A stretch of 64,000 nucleotides of DNA from Candidatus Acetothermia bacterium. Lineage in GTDB: Bacteria; Bipolaricaulota; Bipolaricaulia; RBG-16-55-9; JANLFV01. This document shows, piece after piece, positions 43,145 through 56,733 of the stretch. The stretch covers positions 1 through 64,000 of the forward strand of contig JANLFV010000003.1 of NCBI GenBank assembly GCA_024653345.1, given 5' to 3'. Position numbers and translations under genes: made by a program. The notes beneath the pieces were generated by a model. That model saw nothing but the letters and a program-made list of their open reading frames with translations, did no database searches and was not told the DNA's origin. The stretch's first letter is position 1, and the number at the start of each line of letters is the position of its first letter.

Positions 43145-43747
43145 TCAATCTCCGGAGTGCTCTTCTGGACCGAACTGGAAGAGCTGGTGCAGGTCGGTCT
43201 TCAGCGCCTGGGCGAGGCGGTGGAGGTTCCGGAGGGAGACATTCCGCTTCCCCCGCTCGAGGTCGCTGATGTAGCCCTGGTTCAGGCCGGTCTTGCGCGA
43301 GAGGGCCTCCTGGGTGAGCCGCTGCGCCCTGCGGAGCTGGCGGAGCCGCCGGCCGAAGGTCGCGAAGAGCTCGGCCTCGAGCGAGGCCGCGCTCGGGTTG
43401 AGCGCTTTGCTGATGATCCCCAAGGCGAGCTCGACATCGAGCGGCTTCTCCAGCTGGGCCAGGACGCCCTCCCTCTCTGCCGCTTGCCGCCGGCCGTAGG
43501 CGGTGGCGATCAGGACCTTGCTCTTCGGAGCGGCCTCTCGAAGCCTGGGGAGCAGCTCCAGCCCATCCGAGTCGGGGAGCCGCTGGTCGAGGATCACCAG
43601 GTCGGGCGGGCGAGCGGCGGCCCTCGCCAGGCCCTCCTGCCCGCTATAGGCTACCTCTACCGCGTAGCCCTGGTCAGCCAGGATGTCCTGGAGCGTCTTG
43701 CACATCCCGATCTCGTCGTCGATCACCAAGATCCGCGGCCTATCCAT
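43145..43747 (-). CDS. Response regulator with a Cro/CI-type (XRE) HTH output domain
   Basis: The N-terminal receiver domain (1-115) has the acidic pair in VIDDE, the phospho-acceptor in VILDQRLPD (Asp53), the Thr/Ala switch IATAYG and Lys in LEKPLD. After a linker, residues ~128-188 are a lambda-repressor-like HTH (LRQLRRAQRLTQEALSRKTG, then NQGYISDLERGKRNVSLRNL). Receiver plus XRE output is uncommon; most regulators carry OmpR, NarL or Fis domains. It overlaps the histidine kinase gene by 8 bases and is surely its partner. Likely role: phosphorylation-controlled DNA binding; targets unknown. Confidence 0.93.
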   Translation of the reverse strand: MDRPRILVIDDEIGMCKTLQDILADQGYAVEVAYSGQEGLARAAARPPDLVILDQRLPDSDGLELLPRLREAAPKSKVLIATAYGRRQAAEREGVLAQLEKPLDVELALGIISKALNPSAASLEAELFATFGRRLRQLRRAQRLTQEALSRKTGLNQGYISDLERGKRNVSLRNLHRLAQALKTDLHQLFQFGPEEHSGD

Positions 43748-46742
43748 CGCCCTCCTCCTCGCACCGCGGGAGCCAGATCGTGACCCGGCTCCCGCGCCCC
43801 TCCTCGCTCTCGAACCGGATCTTCCCGCCGTGGTCCTCGATGATCTGCTTGCAGATCGTCAGGCCCAGGCCGGCCCCACGGGTCTTGGTGCTGAAGAGCG
43901 GCTCGAAGACCCGCGCGGCCTCCGCCGCGGGCAAGCCCGGGCCCGTATCTTCGAGCTTGACTGCCACCTCCTTCCCTCTGCGCCAAGCCCGGACGAGCAA
44001 CGCCCCTCGCCCGTCCATCGCCTCGACCGCATTGAGGATAATGTTCCGAAAGACCTGCTGGAGCTGGCGAGGGTCGGCCTCGACCCAGATCGGCCGGCTG
44101 GGGAGGGCCCTGGTTAAGCTGACCCCCTCGGGCAGCTCGGCCTCCGCCAGGACCTGGTCTACCAGCTTTTGGAGCGCGAACCTTCGCCGCTCCGGCTGCC
44201 CGCGGAAGGCGAAGCCCAACAAGTCCGCGATCTCCCGCTCGATCAGCTCCAGATGCTCGTGGACCCTCTCGCCCCGGCCCTCGAGCTTGGACTTCAGGTA
44301 GAAGACGGCGTTTCCGACCACCCCCAGGGGATTGCGCAGGCTGTGGGCGATCGCGCCGGCGAGCTGGCCGATCGCCGCCAGCCGCTCTTGCCGGAGGAGC
44401 CCCTCCTGGGCCTCTCGGAGCTCGCGGAAGTGGTGGGCATTCTCCAGGGCCACGGAGAGATGCCGAGCGAAGATCTCCAAGGTCCCTAGCTCTTCCTCGC
44501 CCATCTCTCCTAACCACGCGCTCATGAGCCAGCGCGCTTCACCTCCAACCGGAAGCGGGGCGTAGAGGACGCCGCGGACCTTCTCTTCCATCGTCTCTAC
44601 GATCTCGGGATGGGAGCGATAGAGCCGGGCGAGGAGGAGGCTCCGCTTCAGGTCGCTGCTGGCCAGGAGCGCCCGCTCCTGGAGGGCCTGGGCTACGAGC
44701 GGGCTCTGGGAGATCGGGACCCGGAACCCCTCGGGCTCACTCCCCAGCAGACCATACAGGGTCCTGATCTCCTCGCGGGGGATCGAACTATACCGCCGGA
44801 CGAGGCTCGGGCCCTCCACGGCCCAGAAAGTGAAGCGGAACCCGGCCCGGGAGAGCTCGGCCGCGGCCAGCTTCAGCAGCCCCTCCTCATCGAGGACCCC
44901 CTGGATCTTCAGGGCCACGCGGCTCAAAGCCCGGAGCCGCTCCTGCGAGGTCCGGAGGGCCTCTTCCATCTCCTTCCGCTCGGTGATCGGCATGACGACC
45001 TCCAGCACGGCGGTGACCTTGCCCTCGCCGTCGCGGATCGGGGTGGCGACGATCTTGGACCAGACCAGCTTGCCCTGTCTATCGCTTCCCACGGCTTCCG
45101 CCTCCGCGCGCGCCGCGCCCTCAAAGACCTGCCGGGCGGGGCACCACGGGCAGACGGACGGCTGCTGATTGTAGGTCTCGTAGCATGGCTTCCCCTCGAC
45201 TTCCCCGAACATCTCCTTCAGGAGACCGTTAGCCCAGACGGTCCGATAGTCGCGGGAGATGAGGGCCAGCCCCGCGCCCATCGTCCTTGCCACCAGGCTG
45301 AGCCTGTCCCGCTCGCGCTGGAGCTCCTCCGTCCGCTCGGCCACCCGCCGCTCCAGGTCGCGGTAGAGCTCGGCGTTCGTGATCGAGATCACCAGCTGGT
45401 CCGCCAGGGCCTCGAGAAGGGCCAGATCGGTCTCGTCGAAGGCGTGTGGCCGGACGCTCTCGACATTGATCCCCCCGATCACCTCCCCTCCCCTGATCAA
45501 GGGGACGCACAGCTCGGCCCTCGTCTGGGGGAAGAAGGCCTCATACCGCGGGTCGATGGGGACATCGTTGACCAGCGCCGTCCGGCCGTGGCGGACCACC
45601 CAGCTGAGCAGCCCGTGGTCAGTGATCGGGAGCCGGGCCTCGCGCGGCCCCGGGCGCTCGTAGCTCCCGGCCCAGGCCCGCCGGACCAGCTCGCCCCGCT
45701 CCTTGTCCACGGAGAAGATCAGCACATCGTGGTAATTGAAGGTCCGCTGGATCTCCTGCGCCACCTCGGTGAGGAGCTGCTCCAGGTCCAGGATCGAGGA
45801 GGCCTTCCGCGCGACTCGCTCGACGAGGAGCAATTCGGAGAGGCGCCGCTCCTCGCGGAGAAATGAGCTGAAGCGGGCCACCGCGATCCCGAGGTGGTTC
45901 GCGATCGTCTGGAGGGCCTGGAGCTGATCGTTCGAGACCCTCATCCGGCTCGGTGCGAGGAGGACGAGGAATCCCACGGCCTGATCCTGGGCCAGCAGCG
46001 GGACGACGACCACCGTCCGCAGGCCCGACTCCTTGAGGGCCGCGCGGGTGATCCGCGGCTCGCGCGTGAGGTCCTCCGAGACGAGCGGCCTCTGCAGCCT
46101 CATTGCCAGCCCGGCGAAGCCCTCATCGACCCGCTGAGGCTCTCGCTCTAGGTCCTCCAACAGAGCCGGTGGCATCCCGACATGGACCTGAGGGACGATG
46201 ATCCCGCGCTCCCGATCGACCGAGACGATCCCCCCGACGGGGAAGCCGCTGAACGCGAGGATCCGCCCCAGGGCCTCCCGGAGGCCAGTGGCGAGGTCCG
46301 GAGCGCGATCGAGGCTGAGGACGATCTCATTGAGCAGTGCCATCTCCTGGCCTTCGGACGAGCCTAGCTCGGGGAAGGCCCGATCGGCGAGGGCGATCTC
46401 CAGGCCATCGTCGTGCTCCCGGCCGAGCGCGCTCAGCGCGACCCGCCGAGGCAGCTCCGTGCCGTCACGCTTCAACAGCGGCAGGACGGCCTCCGCCTGG
46501 CCGGTAGCCCTAGCCCGGGCGAGGGCTCTCTGCCAGCGAGCTCTTGCCCCGGAGGGATAGATGGCCGAGAGGCGCTTCCCGAGCAACTCCTCTTTCCGAT
46601 AGCCGAGAAGCCCCTCGCAGGCCGGGCTGGCGAAGGAGATCCGCCCCTTTGGGTCGAGGAGCAGCACCGGCCTGCCCCTCGAGCTAGGGCCTGCACGCAC
46701 GAGCTCTCTCTTCTTGGGGAAGGACTTCCGCTCGGCCACCAT
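43740..46742 (-). CDS. Multi-sensor cytoplasmic histidine kinase (PAS-GAF-GAF-PAS-GAF-HisKA-HATPase)
   Basis: A 1000-residue soluble kinase with no membrane helix. In order: PAS (~25-120), GAF (~135-290), GAF (~305-460), a coiled coil, PAS (~482-590), GAF-like (~605-770), HisKA with phospho-acceptor His800 (GAIAHSLRNPLG) and HATPase (N904 in ILNAVEAMDG, DTGPGLP, TRGAGLGLTICKQI). The second PAS has Cys520, Cys531 and Cys534 (CYETY, VCPWCPAR), which could bind metal, an Fe-S cluster or sense redox. The ATG is only 2 bases after GGAGG, so the GTG one codon later may be used. It overlaps the response regulator. Confidence 0.93.
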   Translation of the reverse strand: MVAERKSFPKKRELVRAGPSSRGRPVLLLDPKGRISFASPACEGLLGYRKEELLGKRLSAIYPSGARARWQRALARARATGQAEAVLPLLKRDGTELPRRVALSALGREHDDGLEIALADRAFPELGSSEGQEMALLNEIVLSLDRAPDLATGLREALGRILAFSGFPVGGIVSVDRERGIIVPQVHVGMPPALLEDLEREPQRVDEGFAGLAMRLQRPLVSEDLTREPRITRAALKESGLRTVVVVPLLAQDQAVGFLVLLAPSRMRVSNDQLQALQTIANHLGIAVARFSSFLREERRLSELLLVERVARKASSILDLEQLLTEVAQEIQRTFNYHDVLIFSVDKERGELVRRAWAGSYERPGPREARLPITDHGLLSWVVRHGRTALVNDVPIDPRYEAFFPQTRAELCVPLIRGGEVIGGINVESVRPHAFDETDLALLEALADQLVISITNAELYRDLERRVAERTEELQRERDRLSLVARTMGAGLALISRDYRTVWANGLLKEMFGEVEGKPCYETYNQQPSVCPWCPARQVFEGAARAEAEAVGSDRQGKLVWSKIVATPIRDGEGKVTAVLEVVMPITERKEMEEALRTSQERLRALSRVALKIQGVLDEEGLLKLAAAELSRAGFRFTFWAVEGPSLVRRYSSIPREEIRTLYGLLGSEPEGFRVPISQSPLVAQALQERALLASSDLKRSLLLARLYRSHPEIVETMEEKVRGVLYAPLPVGGEARWLMSAWLGEMGEEELGTLEIFARHLSVALENAHHFRELREAQEGLLRQERLAAIGQLAGAIAHSLRNPLGVVGNAVFYLKSKLEGRGERVHEHLELIEREIADLLGFAFRGQPERRRFALQKLVDQVLAEAELPEGVSLTRALPSRPIWVEADPRQLQQVFRNIILNAVEAMDGRGALLVRAWRRGKEVAVKLEDTGPGLPAAEAARVFEPLFSTKTRGAGLGLTICKQIIEDHGGKIRFESEEGRGSRVTIWLPRCEEEGDG

Positions 46743-47805: not shown

Positions 47806-49182
47806 TTGGGCGACTGGCTTGAACAGCTAGACTGGCGGGCTTATCGCGAGGAGGCGGTCGAGCTCCTCGCCGAGCTGTTGAGGATCGACACTTCCAACCC
47901 TCCGGGGCGGGAGACCGAGGCCGCGCGTTACCTGGCGAAGGTGTTCAAGAGGGAGGGCCTGAAGGGGGAGCTCCTCGAGGCCGCCCCGGGGCGGGGGAGC
48001 TTCCTCCTCCGGCTGAGCGGGCGGGGGAGCGGCCCGAAGCTGATGCTCCTCTCGCACACCGATGTCGTCCCCGTGGCCGATCCGTCGAGGTGGGACCATC
48101 CGCCCTTCTCCGGGGCCCTGGCGGACGGCTACATCTGGGGCCGCGGGGCCCTGGACATGAAGTGCCAGACGATCACCGAGGCCCTGACGGTCCTGCTCTT
48201 CAAGCGCCTCGGGCTCCAGTTCAGTGGCGAGCTGGTCTACCTCGCCGTGGCCGATGAGGAGCGGGGGGCGAAGTATGGGGCCGCCTGGCTCAAAGAGCAT
48301 CACCCCGAGCGCCTCAAGGTCGACTATGTCCTGAACGAGGGCGGCGGCGAGGCCCTCCAAGTGGGCGGGAAGACCTTCTACTCGATCGAGACGGTGGAGA
48401 AGGGGCTGTTCTGGCTGAAGGTGAAGGTGAAGGGCCGCTCGGGGCATGGCTCGGTCCCGCACGACGAGAACGCCCTGGTGAAGGCCGCCGGGCTGATCGA
48501 CCGCCTGGCCCATCACAAGTTCCCGAAGCGGATCGACGAGACCGTCCAGGAGTTCCTCACCAAGGTCCTCGGGGCCCTAGGGCCGGGAGGGGAGCAGCTC
48601 GGCCGGGCGCTGCTCGACCCGCAGCGAGAGGTGGACCTCGGGCCGTTCCTCGCCGGGACGGAGTTTGCGCTGGAGGCGATCAACGCCTTCATCCGGACGA
48701 CTGTCTCCCCGACGATGATCCAAGCCGGGGTGAAGGAGAATGTGATCCCCGACTCCTGCGAGTTCGTGCTCGACTGCCGGCTCCTCCCCGGCTCGGCGCG
48801 GGAGGAGCTCCTGGAGAAGCTCGCGGAGCTGGGGGCCGAGCTGGGGTTGAAGTTCGAGACGGAGGTCCTCCAATACCATCCCGCCTCGGGCTCGCCGCTC
48901 GGGACCGATCTCTATAGGGCGATCGAGCGGGCGCTCCGGGCCGAACTCCCGGGGACTGAGCCGGTGCCGCTCATCCTCACCGGGGCGACGGACTCCCGCT
49001 TCCTGAGGGAGCTCGGGGCCCTGGCCTACGGCCTCTGCCCGCTCTCGACGAAGATCACGCTCCACAATCGGCTGATGATGGTCCACGGGGACAACGAGCG
49101 GATCGACCCGGAGAGCCTCGAGCTCCAGGTCCGCGTCTTCACCCGGGTCGCGGCCGAGCTCCTCCAGGCCCGGACGAGATGA
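47806..49182 (+). CDS. M20 family metallopeptidase (ArgE/DapE-like)
   Basis: This zinc-dependent exo- or deacylase-type enzyme has LLRIDTSNPPGRET at the N-terminus, metal ligands in LSHTDVVPV and GRGALDMKCQ, the catalytic Glu in ADEERGAKYG, a lid/dimer domain with RSGHGSVPHDENAL, and the last His in MMVHGDNERI. The 458-residue length fits ArgE/DapE/CPG2-like M20 proteins; without an arginine or lysine operon the substrate is open. The start is TTG at 47806: GAGGTG lies 8 bases before it and an in-frame stop lies just upstream. The next gene, a subtilase, begins within its stop codon (ATGA). Confidence 0.93.
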   Translation: MGDWLEQLDWRAYREEAVELLAELLRIDTSNPPGRETEAARYLAKVFKREGLKGELLEAAPGRGSFLLRLSGRGSGPKLMLLSHTDVVPVADPSRWDHPPFSGALADGYIWGRGALDMKCQTITEALTVLLFKRLGLQFSGELVYLAVADEERGAKYGAAWLKEHHPERLKVDYVLNEGGGEALQVGGKTFYSIETVEKGLFWLKVKVKGRSGHGSVPHDENALVKAAGLIDRLAHHKFPKRIDETVQEFLTKVLGALGPGGEQLGRALLDPQREVDLGPFLAGTEFALEAINAFIRTTVSPTMIQAGVKENVIPDSCEFVLDCRLLPGSAREELLEKLAELGAELGLKFETEVLQYHPASGSPLGTDLYRAIERALRAELPGTEPVPLILTGATDSRFLRELGALAYGLCPLSTKITLHNRLMMVHGDNERIDPESLELQVRVFTRVAAELLQARTR

Positions 49183-50546
49183 CGGCTCAGCTCGAGTCGC
49201 CCGAGCGAGGGCCGGCTAATCCCATTCTGACCATGAGATCTCTGTTCGCTTCGCTCCTGTTGCTGCTGGCCTTCGGCCTCACGGGGCAAGGCGCGAGCCG
49301 GGTCCTCATCGGGCTGGAGGGCGAGCCGCTCGCGCCCGAGGCCGCAACAGCGCTGGCGAACGAACTGGCAACTCACGCCGGCCGGGTCATCCACCGCTAT
49401 GCGCTGGTCAATGTCGTCCTCGCCGAGCTGCCGGAGGAGGCGATCGCGGAGCTCGCCGAGAGCCCGGCCGTCCGGTTCATCGAGCGCGACGGCGAGGTGG
49501 CTGCCCCCGAGCCTGCGGGAGCCCAGGAGTTGAAGCTGACTTGGGAGTGGCTCCCCTGGGGAGTGGAGCGGATCGGGGCGGACAAGGTCCATCACCCGCC
49601 CGAGCGGGCAAGCGCCGCGCTCCTCCTCTTCCTGCCGCTGCTCGGCTTCAGCTTGGGGCTTGCTCGGCTCCGCCGGGCGGGGCTGGCCCTCCTCCTCGCG
49701 CTCTCGCTCGCGCTCCTGCTCTTCGGCTGCGAGCCGCCCTACATTCGGATCAGGCCGAACAGCCAGGGCTACGCCGGCGCGGGGGTGAGGGTCGCCCTCC
49801 TCGACAGCGGGATCGACCCCGAGCATCCGGACCTCCGCGGAAGTTACATTGGCGGCTACGACTTCGTGAACGGCGACTCCGAGCCGTGGGACGACAACGG
49901 GCACGGGACGGAGGTGGCGGGGATCTTGGCCGCAAGGGAGAACGGCACCGGCGTGGTGGGCGTGGCCCCGCAGGCTGAGCTGCTCGTGGTCAAGATCCTG
50001 GGGCAGGACGCCCGGGGGGCGATCAGCGATGTGATCCGCGGCCTGGAGTGGGCGGTCCAGCGAGGGGCCGAGGTGGTGAACCTCAGCCTGGGGACGCCCG
50101 AGGACTCGCCCGCGCTCCGCGAGGCGGTCCGGGCCGCTTGGGAAGCAGGGTTGGTCCTCGTCGCCGCGGCAGGGAACGAGTCGGGCAGCGTCCTCTACCC
50201 CGCCGCTTACCCCGAGGTGCTCGCCGTCTCGGGGATCGACCGGAAGGACCGGCTGGTCTGGTCCAGCAACTTCGGGCCGGAGGTCGACCTCGCCGCCCCC
50301 GGAGAAGAGCTGCCCACGAGCTATCCCCGGGGCCGGTATCGGCTGGCGACGGGGACATCCTTCGCCGCGGCCCATGTGACGGGGACGGTCGCGCTCCTCA
50401 TCTCCTCGGGCATTCGGGAGAACCGCGCGATCCGGGCCCGACTCGAGGGGACAGCCGAGGACCTCGGCCTCCCGCGGCAGCAGCAGGGGGCTGGGCTGGT
50501 CGATGCCGCTCGCGCGGTCCTGGGCGAGCCTGCGGAGGCTCGCTAA
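49179..50546 (+). CDS. Subtilisin-family (S8) protease with a membrane hairpin inserted before the catalytic core
   Basis: Residues ~20-40 are a signal peptide, ~41-108 an I9-type propeptide (ALVNVVLAELPEEAIAELAE, FIERDGEV) and ~122-138 the start of a subtilase (WEWLPWGVERIGADKVH). Instead of running directly into the catalytic core, about 58 residues follow (139-196) with two hydrophobic helices (~145-162 and 167-183), a RLRR turn and Cys184 in LLLFGC, a lipobox-like site. The core is complete: Asp209 (LLDSGID), His242 (NGHGTEVAGI), Asn333 (AAGNES) and Ser393 (GTSFAAAHVTG). ATGA coupling to the M20 gene supports the start at 49179; an ATG at 49233 would give a shorter signal peptide. Confidence 0.92.
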   Translation: MTAQLESPERGPANPILTMRSLFASLLLLLAFGLTGQGASRVLIGLEGEPLAPEAATALANELATHAGRVIHRYALVNVVLAELPEEAIAELAESPAVRFIERDGEVAAPEPAGAQELKLTWEWLPWGVERIGADKVHHPPERASAALLLFLPLLGFSLGLARLRRAGLALLLALSLALLLFGCEPPYIRIRPNSQGYAGAGVRVALLDSGIDPEHPDLRGSYIGGYDFVNGDSEPWDDNGHGTEVAGILAARENGTGVVGVAPQAELLVVKILGQDARGAISDVIRGLEWAVQRGAEVVNLSLGTPEDSPALREAVRAAWEAGLVLVAAAGNESGSVLYPAAYPEVLAVSGIDRKDRLVWSSNFGPEVDLAAPGEELPTSYPRGRYRLATGTSFAAAHVTGTVALLISSGIRENRAIRARLEGTAEDLGLPRQQQGAGLVDAARAVLGEPAEAR

Positions 50547-53438: not shown

Positions 53439-54551
53439 CTACTCGGCCCTTCCCGTCCGCTGGGGATCGTGGTGGAATGTCGGCCAGGGCGAGCGGGCTA
53501 GGCCGGTGCTGGAGCAGCTCAGGGCGTAGATCCTCCCGTCCCAAGAGCCGAAGTAGACAATCCCATCTGCCACAAGCGGCGAGGAGATGACCCGATTCCT
53601 CGCGGCGAAATGCCATCTTTCGCTCCCGTCCGGATTGAGCGCGTAGAGCCGCCCATTCCCCGCTCCGACATAGATCACGCCGTCATCGCCGACCGTGGGG
53701 GAGGAGTCGACCGGCGCGCCTGCGGGAAAGCGCCATTTGAGGCTCCCGTCGGGGTTGATCGCGTAGAGTCCGCCGTCGCCCGAGCCGACATAGATCGTGC
53801 CATCCTCGCCGACTGCGGGGGAGGAGTCGAACCACGACCGGGCGGCGAAGCGCCACTTGAGGCTCCCATCGGGGTTGAGAGCGTAGACCTCGCCGTCCCA
53901 GGTCCCGAAATAGATAACGCCCTCGGCGTCGAGCGCCGGCGAGGAGGAGCTATTCGACCCTCCGGGGATGGGGAACTCCCACTTCATCGAGCCGTCGCGG
54001 TTGAAGGCATAGGCCCGCCCGCGCCCGCGGGTGAGGTAGATCGTCCCCTCGGGGGCGATGGCAGGAGCGGTCTTGAGCCAGGCACCGGTGTCGACCGACC
54101 ATCTCACAGCGGCGTGAAGGTCGATGGCTCGCAGCAGCCCGTTCTCCAGCGCTAGGTAGATCCCCTGGTTACCGTCGAGCGCCGGCGCGCCGGTCGGCGC
54201 GCCGGGAGTAGGGGTGCGCCACCTTACCGTCCCGTCGGGGTTAAGGGCAAAGAGGGTGAACGCCCCGCCGATGTAGATCGTCCCGTCCTCGCCGACGGCT
54301 GGGGTGGAGGTGAGCGCCTCCAGTGCCTGGAAGCTCCACTTCTTCGACCCTTCGGGAGAGAAGGCATAGAGCTGCCCGTCCCGCGAGCCGATGTAGACTG
54401 TCCCATCATGGCCTAAGGCCGGGGAGGACCAGATCTCCCCGCCGGTCGGGAAGGACCACAGGAGCACGCCCTCGCCTGGCTCGCCCCCCGCTGAAGCGAG
54501 GGAGAGGGTCAGGAGTGCGACCAATCCCAACACGACCTTCAGCTCTCTCAC
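53439..54551 (-). CDS. Secreted PQQ-like beta-propeller repeat protein
   Basis: A 370-residue exported protein: signal peptide (VVLGLVALLTLSLASAGGE) and then about eight repeats of ~38-40 residues built on SSPAVGEDGTIYVGSGDGGL YAxNPDG-type units, each with YIG/YVG and LYALNPDGSxKWxF. These repeats form a beta-propeller like those of BamB and PQQ enzymes; no enzyme active site is visible, so a binding or scaffold role is likely. The GTG at 54551 is chosen because AAGGAGG lies 7 bases upstream and the signal peptide begins there. It diverges from the O-antigen-ligase-like gene. Confidence 0.88.
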   Translation of the reverse strand: MRELKVVLGLVALLTLSLASAGGEPGEGVLLWSFPTGGEIWSSPALGHDGTVYIGSRDGQLYAFSPEGSKKWSFQALEALTSTPAVGEDGTIYIGGAFTLFALNPDGTVRWRTPTPGAPTGAPALDGNQGIYLALENGLLRAIDLHAAVRWSVDTGAWLKTAPAIAPEGTIYLTRGRGRAYAFNRDGSMKWEFPIPGGSNSSSSPALDAEGVIYFGTWDGEVYALNPDGSLKWRFAARSWFDSSPAVGEDGTIYVGSGDGGLYAINPDGSLKWRFPAGAPVDSSPTVGDDGVIYVGAGNGRLYALNPDGSERWHFAARNRVISSPLVADGIVYFGSWDGRIYALSCSSTGLARSPWPTFHHDPQRTGRAE

Positions 54552-54617
54552 GAGCGGACCTCCTTGCGCGAGATCATACAAGCGACGAGGCCACTGATCC
54601 GCGGGGCCGGGCTTGCT

Positions 54618-54646
54618 TTGGGCCCGCCCCCTGCCGGGAGTATAAT
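54618..54646 (+). promoter_or_regulatory. Predicted leaderless promoter of the O-antigen-ligase-like gene
   Basis: TTGGGC (54618-54623), 17-base spacer, TATAAT (54641-54646); 8 bases (TATCCATC) to the ATG at 54655. Confidence 0.6.
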
Positions 54647-54654
54647 TATCCATC

Positions 54655-56733
54655 ATGACTAGAGCAATGGTCCTAGAACGCCCCCTCCGCTGGATTCTCA
54701 TCGGCTTCTGCTTCGTCCTCCCGCTGATCTTCTCCCCCCTCGGCTATCAATACAGCAGGATCGTCTTCGCCCTCATCGTAATCCCGCTTCTAGTGACGCT
54801 CTACGCCCTCATGCTCCTGTCAGAGCGGGGCGCTGCGGCCCGCCTGGCGCTGCCGTTGCCATTTGTTCTAGGGCTCGGACTCCTTGTGCTCGCGGGGATC
54901 TCGCTGATCAACTCAGCTAATGTCCGAATCGGGCTCGAGAGCCTCGCCCTCCTCCTCTGGGCGCTGCTGTTCTACCTCTTGGTGGCAAACCTCACCACGA
55001 CCGCGCGCCACCTCCGGCAAGTGCTCCTCGCCCTCTTCCTCGCCGGCTCGCTCGCCGCGCTCTACGGCCTCCTCCAGTATTACGGCTACACCCTCTTCCC
55101 CCGCCCGCAGCGGCTCCCCACCCTCGGGCCGGGGAACCTGATCGCGACCATGGGGAATAAGAACTACCTCGCCAGCTACCTCGGCCCGCTCATCCCGATC
55201 GGGCTCTTCCTCCTCCTCGAAGCGGAAAGGCGCTGGGAGCGATGGGCAATCCTGGTCGGCCTAGCCCTGAGCTGGGCCGCTGGGATCGCGGGCGGGACCC
55301 GCTCGGTCTGGCTCGGGCTGGCCCTGGCCGCGGTCTACGGGGCCGTGAGCCTTGGAGTCTCCGGGAAGGCCCGGGCCGTCCTGAAGCGGAGCATCGGGTG
55401 GCTAGCGTCCGTCGGGGCAGTTCTGGTCCTGATCGCCCTCGTCTTCATCCTCCTCAACCCGCTCAACAAGACCGAGGTCGGGAAACGGATCGCCGGCGGC
55501 GTGGAGGCCCTGAGTAACCCTTATGTCCGCTACTACGACTGGTGGATCGGCTGGGAGATGGGGAAGAGCCAGCCGCTCATCGGGAGCGGCCTGGGAGATT
55601 TCAAGATCGACTACTCCGACTACAAGGCCCGGTTCCTCCAGACCGAGCGGGGGCGGCCCTACCGCGCGGCCGCGGTCCCTCGGGCCATGCAAGCCCACAA
55701 CGAATACATCCAGGGCTGGGCCGAACTGGGGGGCTTAGGGATGGCCCTGGCGCTCGCGGCCTTGGGGGCCGTCTTCTACGGCGGCTGGCGGGGCCTGCGC
55801 GCGGCCCGGGAGGAGCGCGGCGGCGAGGGGAAAGTGGCGGCCAGCCTGGCGCTCCAGGCCGGGATCGTCGTCCTGCTGGGCGACGCCTTCTTCAGCTTCC
55901 CCTTGCATCTCCCGGCCTCGGCCTTGGAGTTGGTCCTCTTTGCCGGGCTCCTCGCGTCGGCCTACCTGGCTCCCAGACCGGCCGTCAGGCCCAAGCCCGA
56001 GCTCGGCCGGGCCGCGAGAGCGGCCTTCTGCGGGGCGATGATCCTCTTGGCCGGGGCCACGGTCGCCTTCACCGTCCGCGACCTGGCGGGCGAGGTCCTC
56101 CTCCAGCGAGGGGAGCGGCTCCTCGCGGCCGGCTCGACCGCGGAGGCGACTGCCGCGCTCGAGCGGAGCCTGAAGCTCGATTTCGCCCCGAAGAAGGTCC
56201 TCTTCGACCTCGGCCTGATCTACATGGACTCAGACCTGGCCAAGGCCGAGGCCTTCTTCCTCCGCTCACTGCGCACCTCCGCCGCCGACCCCGCGGCCTA
56301 CCTCAACCTCACGGAGATCGCCCGCGCTCGGGGCGAGTATGAGAAGGCCCTGGACTATGCCCGCCGCGGACGGGAGCTCGAGCCGACCGAGCTGGAGTTC
56401 CTCTACCTCCAGACCTGGCTCACGGCCCAGCTCGGGCGGATCTCCGAGGCCCTCCCGCTCGCCCGCCAGTTGATCGCCAGCAACGACGGCCTCTACCGCG
56501 CCAAGGCCTACGCGCTCGTCGGGGACATCTACTTCCTCGAGGAGCACCGCGAGGAGGCGATCCTGAACTACCAGCTCGCGCTCGCCGAGGTGGCGGACGA
56601 ACTGGGGAGGCTGAAGGGCTGGGAGGGGCGGAGCGTCTCGCCCGAGCAGTATCGCAAGATCATGGACAGATACGAGGAACTGAAAGGGCTGGCGGAGAAG
56701 CTCCAGGAGGCGCTGAAGAAGCTCGAGCTCTAG
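54655..56733 (+). CDS. O-antigen ligase/polymerase-like membrane protein with C-terminal TPR repeats
   Basis: Residues 1-~450 are a multi-pass membrane protein (ten or more helices) of the WaaL/Wzy (Wzy_C) superfamily, with the large periplasmic loop holding GSGLGDFKIDYSDYKARF and AMQAHNEYIQGWAELGGLGM, the NEYLQ-type motif of this family. Residues ~480-690 are four to five TPR units (AYLNLTEIARARGEYEKALD, AIASNDGLYRAKAYALVGDI-like). Such fusions link glycan ligation or polymerisation with protein contacts at the inner membrane. The likely substrate is a lipid-linked glycan, either for LPS or for glycoprotein; no glycosyltransferase gene is adjacent. Confidence 0.88.
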   Translation: MTRAMVLERPLRWILIGFCFVLPLIFSPLGYQYSRIVFALIVIPLLVTLYALMLLSERGAAARLALPLPFVLGLGLLVLAGISLINSANVRIGLESLALLLWALLFYLLVANLTTTARHLRQVLLALFLAGSLAALYGLLQYYGYTLFPRPQRLPTLGPGNLIATMGNKNYLASYLGPLIPIGLFLLLEAERRWERWAILVGLALSWAAGIAGGTRSVWLGLALAAVYGAVSLGVSGKARAVLKRSIGWLASVGAVLVLIALVFILLNPLNKTEVGKRIAGGVEALSNPYVRYYDWWIGWEMGKSQPLIGSGLGDFKIDYSDYKARFLQTERGRPYRAAAVPRAMQAHNEYIQGWAELGGLGMALALAALGAVFYGGWRGLRAAREERGGEGKVAASLALQAGIVVLLGDAFFSFPLHLPASALELVLFAGLLASAYLAPRPAVRPKPELGRAARAAFCGAMILLAGATVAFTVRDLAGEVLLQRGERLLAAGSTAEATAALERSLKLDFAPKKVLFDLGLIYMDSDLAKAEAFFLRSLRTSAADPAAYLNLTEIARARGEYEKALDYARRGRELEPTELEFLYLQTWLTAQLGRISEALPLARQLIASNDGLYRAKAYALVGDIYFLEEHREEAILNYQLALAEVADELGRLKGWEGRSVSPEQYRKIMDRYEELKGLAEKLQEALKKLEL

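Follow-up and report, generated by a model that had tools for sequence, protein, structure and literature searches.

Secreted subtilisins with an I9-type propeptide, such as subtilisin E, subtilisin BPN' and pro-Tk-subtilisin (MEROPS S8A; PF00082 with PF05922), pass directly from His17 to Ser18 in the mature chain. Mycosins, which are also membrane-associated subtilases, are anchored by a C-terminal TM helix. In bacteria, the signals of lipoproteins are assumed to lie at the N terminus, which is the one place where prediction tools search for them and the setting in which LspA action is documented. A type II signal consists of a basic n-region, a hydrophobic h-region and a lipobox, for which the textbook residues at position -2 are A, S, T, V and I (PMC8048626). 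Here we describe a subtilase encoded in a 64,000-nucleotide stretch of DNA (the window) from Candidatus Acetothermia bacterium, in which 56 residues, with two predicted TM helices and a lipobox, stand between the equivalents of His17 and Ser18. From comparison with its relatives, we consider it probable that the precursor of this subtilase has a lipoprotein (type II) signal within its chain.

Results

The gene (49179..50546, + strand) encodes 455 amino acids with a match to PF00082, and both the reading frame and its translation are as an earlier note on this DNA had described them. Its first ATG (49179) shares bases with the stop codon of the upstream M20 peptidase gene, and alignment to the same-genus orthologue points to Met19 (49233) as the likelier start. 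With initiation at Met19, the protein would begin with an ordinary signal peptide that contains neither a Cys nor a lipobox (residues 19-38; 49233..49292, + strand; hydrophobic segment 16-32). Cys184, in the insert, is the sole Cys of the protein.

The protein is an S8 subtilase, and its propeptide is probably of the I9 type. The Pfam Peptidase_S8 profile (PF00082) covers residues 200-438 (E 2e-53; 182.1 bits against a cut-off of 21.8), and the catalytic core spans residues 195-447 (49761..50519, + strand). The catalytic residues Asp209 (49803-49805), His242 (49902-49904) and Ser394 (50358-50360), together with the oxyanion residue Asn333 (50175-50177), all on the + strand, are invariant in both alignments, A1 and A2. 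The earlier note had named the Asp and the His correctly and placed the serine one residue too early, at 393; it is the last residue of G392-T393-S394. The AF2 model used here, built from 39 sequences, has a mean pLDDT of 84.0 (an input of 5 sequences gave 58.6) and displays an intact subtilisin fold, with pLDDT in the core mostly above 95. Over residues 38-448 it matches unprocessed pro-subtilisin E (3whi; Z 51, rmsd 1.6, 344 residues) and pro-Tk-subtilisin (Z 50), and the match to mature subtilisins has a Z of 43.

The propeptide and its linker occupy residues 39-121 (49293..49541, + strand). In the model, residues 39-103 form a strand-helix-strand-strand-helix-strand arrangement, which is the I9 fold. 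The Inhibitor_I9 profile (PF05922) reaches only 16.1 bits on the window protein, against a cut-off of 21.2, but is recognised in seven of the eight family members (best E 2e-6). The I9 propeptide proposed earlier falls short by profile in the window protein alone and is made likely by the orthologues and the matched prodomain fold. The autoprocessing junction is expected near 121/122. Residue 122 corresponds to subtilisin residue 1, and WEWLPWGVERIGADKVH (122-138; 49542..49592, + strand), the opening 17 residues of the mature domain, contains W127, G128, R131, A134 and V137, which are invariant in the orthologue alignment.

Structural comparison pairs W122-H138 with the first 17 residues of subtilisin and S195 with Ser18, and a phmmer alignment to subtilisin BPN' likewise begins at Ser18. 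The insert therefore comprises residues 139-194 (49593..49760, + strand). The two helices, the RLRR turn and Cys184 that had been noticed previously are all there; the length, given as about 58 residues, is corrected to 56 by alignment to subtilisin. On the + strand, the first helix of the insert is TM1, which is predicted from hydropathy and the AF2 model to run from outside to inside (144-159; 49608..49655), followed by the basic turn RLRR (163-166; 49665..49676), predicted to be cytoplasmic from its sequence and its spacing to the Cys. TM2, the putative h-region, is predicted to run back outwards (167-183; 49677..49727) and ends in the lipobox L181-F182-G183-C184 (49719..49730), where conservation in the eight orthologues suggests lipidation and an LspA cut at 183/184. 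A tether (185-194; 49731..49760) leads to the core. The AF2 helices in the insert cover 144-159 and 162-181, with low confidence for the hairpin (57-71). The basic residues in the inter-helix loop and the Cys at the outer end of TM2 fit the suggestion of the earlier note that propeptide and core lie on the same side of the membrane, joined by a hairpin. They fit equally its other suggestion, lipoprotein processing at Cys184, as does L-x-G-C, which alone is invariant in the helical insert. The loop that joins the opening strand to the Asp strand is also the site of short soluble insertions in other phyla, for example WGGAENAVDTDPERPTG, at L096:247-2037 (G353), L082 (G385) and L087 (G352), so this position tolerates insertions.

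The earlier note knew of no subtilase with this layout and suggested a search for homologues. Such a search recovered the insert in the same-genus orthologue and in seven other proteins, so that a layout confined to the window genome is rejected and the feature becomes a trait of one clade, with nine proteins from four families of a single order (Acetothermia/Bipolaricaulota-like). The same-genus orthologue (relative L004) shares 69% identity and also has the insert, in which LLSGC replaces LLFGC. Six proteins in families f2 and f5 end the hairpin in LPGC, LGGC, LSGC, LSGC, LGGC and LLGC. The ninth member (L095:453-2084, family f3), recognised on reading a split match, has LNSC, is Cys-rich and has a very divergent core; a protein of this type was found in only one of the ten genomes of its family. 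Family f3 also contains a subtilase split over two overlapping frames (L135:1107-2674; G004:C66), which is either an assembly frameshift or a broken gene.

In trees built from the core only, the eight closest proteins form one clade (SH-aLRT 95), and so do all nine (96/76; 97% of bootstrap trees), the latter grouping being support rather than proof because the L095 branch is long. Judging from these trees, the layout arose once. Single-genome observations from metagenome assemblies can contain errors of the kind that would produce such an insert, but here nine independent genomes share it, the frames are intact and the catalytic residues are invariant. Moreover, synonymous changes outpace replacements in the insert of the same-genus pair (dN 0.27, dS 0.64; core dN 0.19, dS 0.63), a comparison that indicates purifying selection on the insert. 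We therefore regard an assembly artefact, a chance in-frame insertion or a decaying gene as having a negligible probability. The grounds for doubt raised in the earlier note, an assembly insertion or near-identical homologues that lack the insert, were set aside because the insert is common to nine genomes.

When about 65 S8 ORFs of the order were scanned more fully, no further hairpin subtilase emerged, and no other subtilase read from the phylum had the insert. The best profile matches in 691 genomes from two other phyla start no earlier than model position 194, and the match regions fetched from these phyla have no TM hairpin ahead of the core. The hairpin is found in none of 77 viral-contig subtilases, and none of 1022 plasmid records spans 80% of the query. 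The threshold in a search of 396 genomes from a third phylum was too strict for the result to be very informative. All searches outside the order are samples, and the layout may be more widely spread.

Conservation within the insert is concentrated at the lipobox. Among the eight closest members, none of the 29 ungapped columns up to residue 180 is invariant, and L181, G183 and C184, which are lipobox positions -3, -1 and +1, are invariant in all eight. The chance that three invariant columns placed at random among the 33 would coincide with exactly these three is about 0.0002, a figure that is descriptive only because the columns are not equivalent. In addition, among 35 internal TM-like segments of the longest ORFs of the window, the one in the subtilase insert is alone in ending in a lipobox. 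The lipobox is thus more than chance, as it is the sole case among these segments and its motif is invariant in a fast-changing insert. In all nine proteins, 16-22 residues separate the last basic residue from the Cys and 19-25 residues separate the Cys from the catalytic Asp, although the interval between the opening strand and the Cys ranges from 47 to 67 residues. Free hydrophobic sequence, a fixed length and a fixed cleavage motif make the insert, by its pattern of conservation, signal-peptide-like.

One alternative is that the hairpin is an uncut membrane anchor that holds propeptide and core side by side, with Cys184 perhaps lipidated by Lgt and no cut by LspA. It would account for two well-formed hydrophobic helices and a basic turn, and TM2 alone could hold the core. 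In a limited literature search, we found nothing relevant on an internal lipobox or an internal lipoprotein signal, and LspA acting on internal segments is undocumented in the literature searched, which also favours an uncut anchor. However, such an anchor has no need of an invariant L-x-G-C in helices that otherwise lack an invariant residue, nor of a basic-to-Cys spacing held at signal-peptide length. We consider it a rather unlikely reading, if the most serious competitor to an internal type II signal.

The motif follows the lipobox rule of Leu or Val at -3, Gly, Ala or Ser at -1 and Cys at +1 in eight members (L-x-G-C) and in the ninth (LNSC). Phe182 of the window protein, at -2, lies outside the textbook set, as does the -2 residue in six of the nine members overall; the other members have S, P, G, L or N there. 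The N-terminal lipoproteins of the order have L at -3 in 11 of 12 cases, G or S at -1, and P, G, L and S among their -2 residues, and N-terminal lipoboxes with Phe at -2 (LFGC and TFGC) occur in the same class. The genome encodes both Lgt (PF01790, 236 bits) and LspA (PF01252, 120 bits), each above its cut-off. A single conserved Cys at the membrane border could also serve some other chemistry, such as metal or heme binding, a disulfide with a partner or redox sensing, the lipobox likeness being incidental. This would leave the conservation of Leu at -3 and Gly at -1, a lipobox pattern, unexplained; the insert has no second conserved Cys or His, and the motif recurs in the N-terminal lipoproteins of the order. 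Six of the eight proteins contain no Cys other than the equivalent of Cys184. We consider such other chemistry quite improbable.

Since propeptide and core flank a membrane hairpin, the helices might instead form a sensor or regulatory domain that couples membrane events to activation, the protease being released in response to a signal and the lipobox cut being one controlled step. TM1 and TM2, however, have no conserved polar or signature residues, and the gene neighbours differ among families, with no partner implied. In the family of the window (f1), the subtilase gene lies between an M20 peptidase gene and tig-clpP; in f5 it lies between mutS2 and tatC-efp, and in f2 it adjoins pcm. That the families have no neighbours in common speaks against a dedicated partner close by, and coupling to neighbour genes was rejected. 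A sensor role is accordingly very improbable, even more so than another use of the Cys.

Several other loci were recorded. Elsewhere in the window, a large sensor histidine kinase with PAS and GAF domains (43740-46742, - strand) adjoins a metallophosphoesterase gene, and an O-antigen ligase (Wzy_C) with a C-terminal TPR part (54655-56733) is divergent from a beta-propeller (PQQ/BamB-like) protein on the opposite strand (53439-54701), their 5' ends overlapping. A Chloroflexota ORF (L008:3351-5975) holds a polytopic Rce1/CAAX-type protease (PF02517, 248-339) and a subtilase (PF00082, 554-861) in one frame, and may be an intramembrane protease fused to a subtilase.

Discussion

If the insert is an internal type II signal, as we favour, the N-terminal signal peptide would export the propeptide, and TM1 would then stop export and return the chain to the inner face. 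The RLRR turn would stay in the cytoplasm as the n-region of the internal signal, and TM2 would cross outwards and end in the lipobox. Lgt would add diacylglycerol to Cys184 and LspA would cut before it, so that the core, from Cys184 to the end, would become a lipid-anchored protease on the outer face, severed from the propeptide. TM1 has a place in this scheme because the basic end of a type II signal has to be cytoplasmic and its Cys external, and therefore an already exported chain must cross back. A hairpin would be the simplest way to place a lipobox between two exported domains, and the basic residues of the loop agree with this. The topology, the lipidation, the cleavage and the retention of the core by a lipid anchor are all predictions from these comparisons.

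Ordinary subtilisin autoprocessing near 121/122 could occur as well. The LspA cut would leave residues 122-183 in the membrane as a stub on the hairpin, of which the first 17 are part of the subtilisin fold. Cleavage at 183/184 would detach these residues from the core, which could cost stability unless they are still bound; they might indeed remain bound, or be dispensable.

The nearest relatives without the insert (L037-L039, 43-46% identical) have their lipobox at the N terminus, ahead of the propeptide (LTGC, TFGC and LFGC), as do L040, L043, L046 and L047 of the same class, each with LAGC; the N-terminal signals of the hairpin clade are without a lipobox. An N-terminal lipobox would mean that the lipid is lost with the propeptide on autoprocessing, and an internal one that the catalytic core keeps it, which suggests a functional reason for the relocation. 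More tentatively, the LspA cut at the internal signal may itself be a step of zymogen maturation, instead of or besides autoproteolysis, in which a peptide anchor is swapped for a lipid, and which arose once when the lipobox moved past the propeptide. We offer this as a possibility to which we give well under an even chance. Use of an internal signal would mean that internal helices are open to Lgt and LspA, that a subtilase can be parted from its propeptide in a second way, and that lipidated domains of multi-domain exported proteins are being overlooked.

Among known systems, mycosins give the best NCBIfam match by score (TIGR03921), but the 204.2 bits over the core fall below the cut-off of 278.75. 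The window protein has no TM-like segment after the core, its chain ending 8 residues past 447, and mycosin membership was therefore rejected. Secreted I9 subtilisins are alike in fold, triad and the region of the pro/mature junction, and a membrane hairpin of this kind is absent from the solved structures matched here. Lipoproteins processed by Lgt and LspA share the basic n-region, the hydrophobic h-region and the L-x-G-C motif that precede and include Cys184. Because the lipobox of the window protein is internal, at residue 184 after a separate signal, the propeptide and TM1, and has Phe at -2, the feature would work like a classical bacterial lipoprotein signal but is not one. The subtilases with an N-terminal lipobox have an I9-like propeptide, a catalytic core and a lipobox of the same kind. 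In these the lipobox precedes the propeptide, whereas in the window protein it precedes the catalytic core, and this arrangement, from its recurrence in the nine proteins compared, is a conserved variant of the subtilase precursor.
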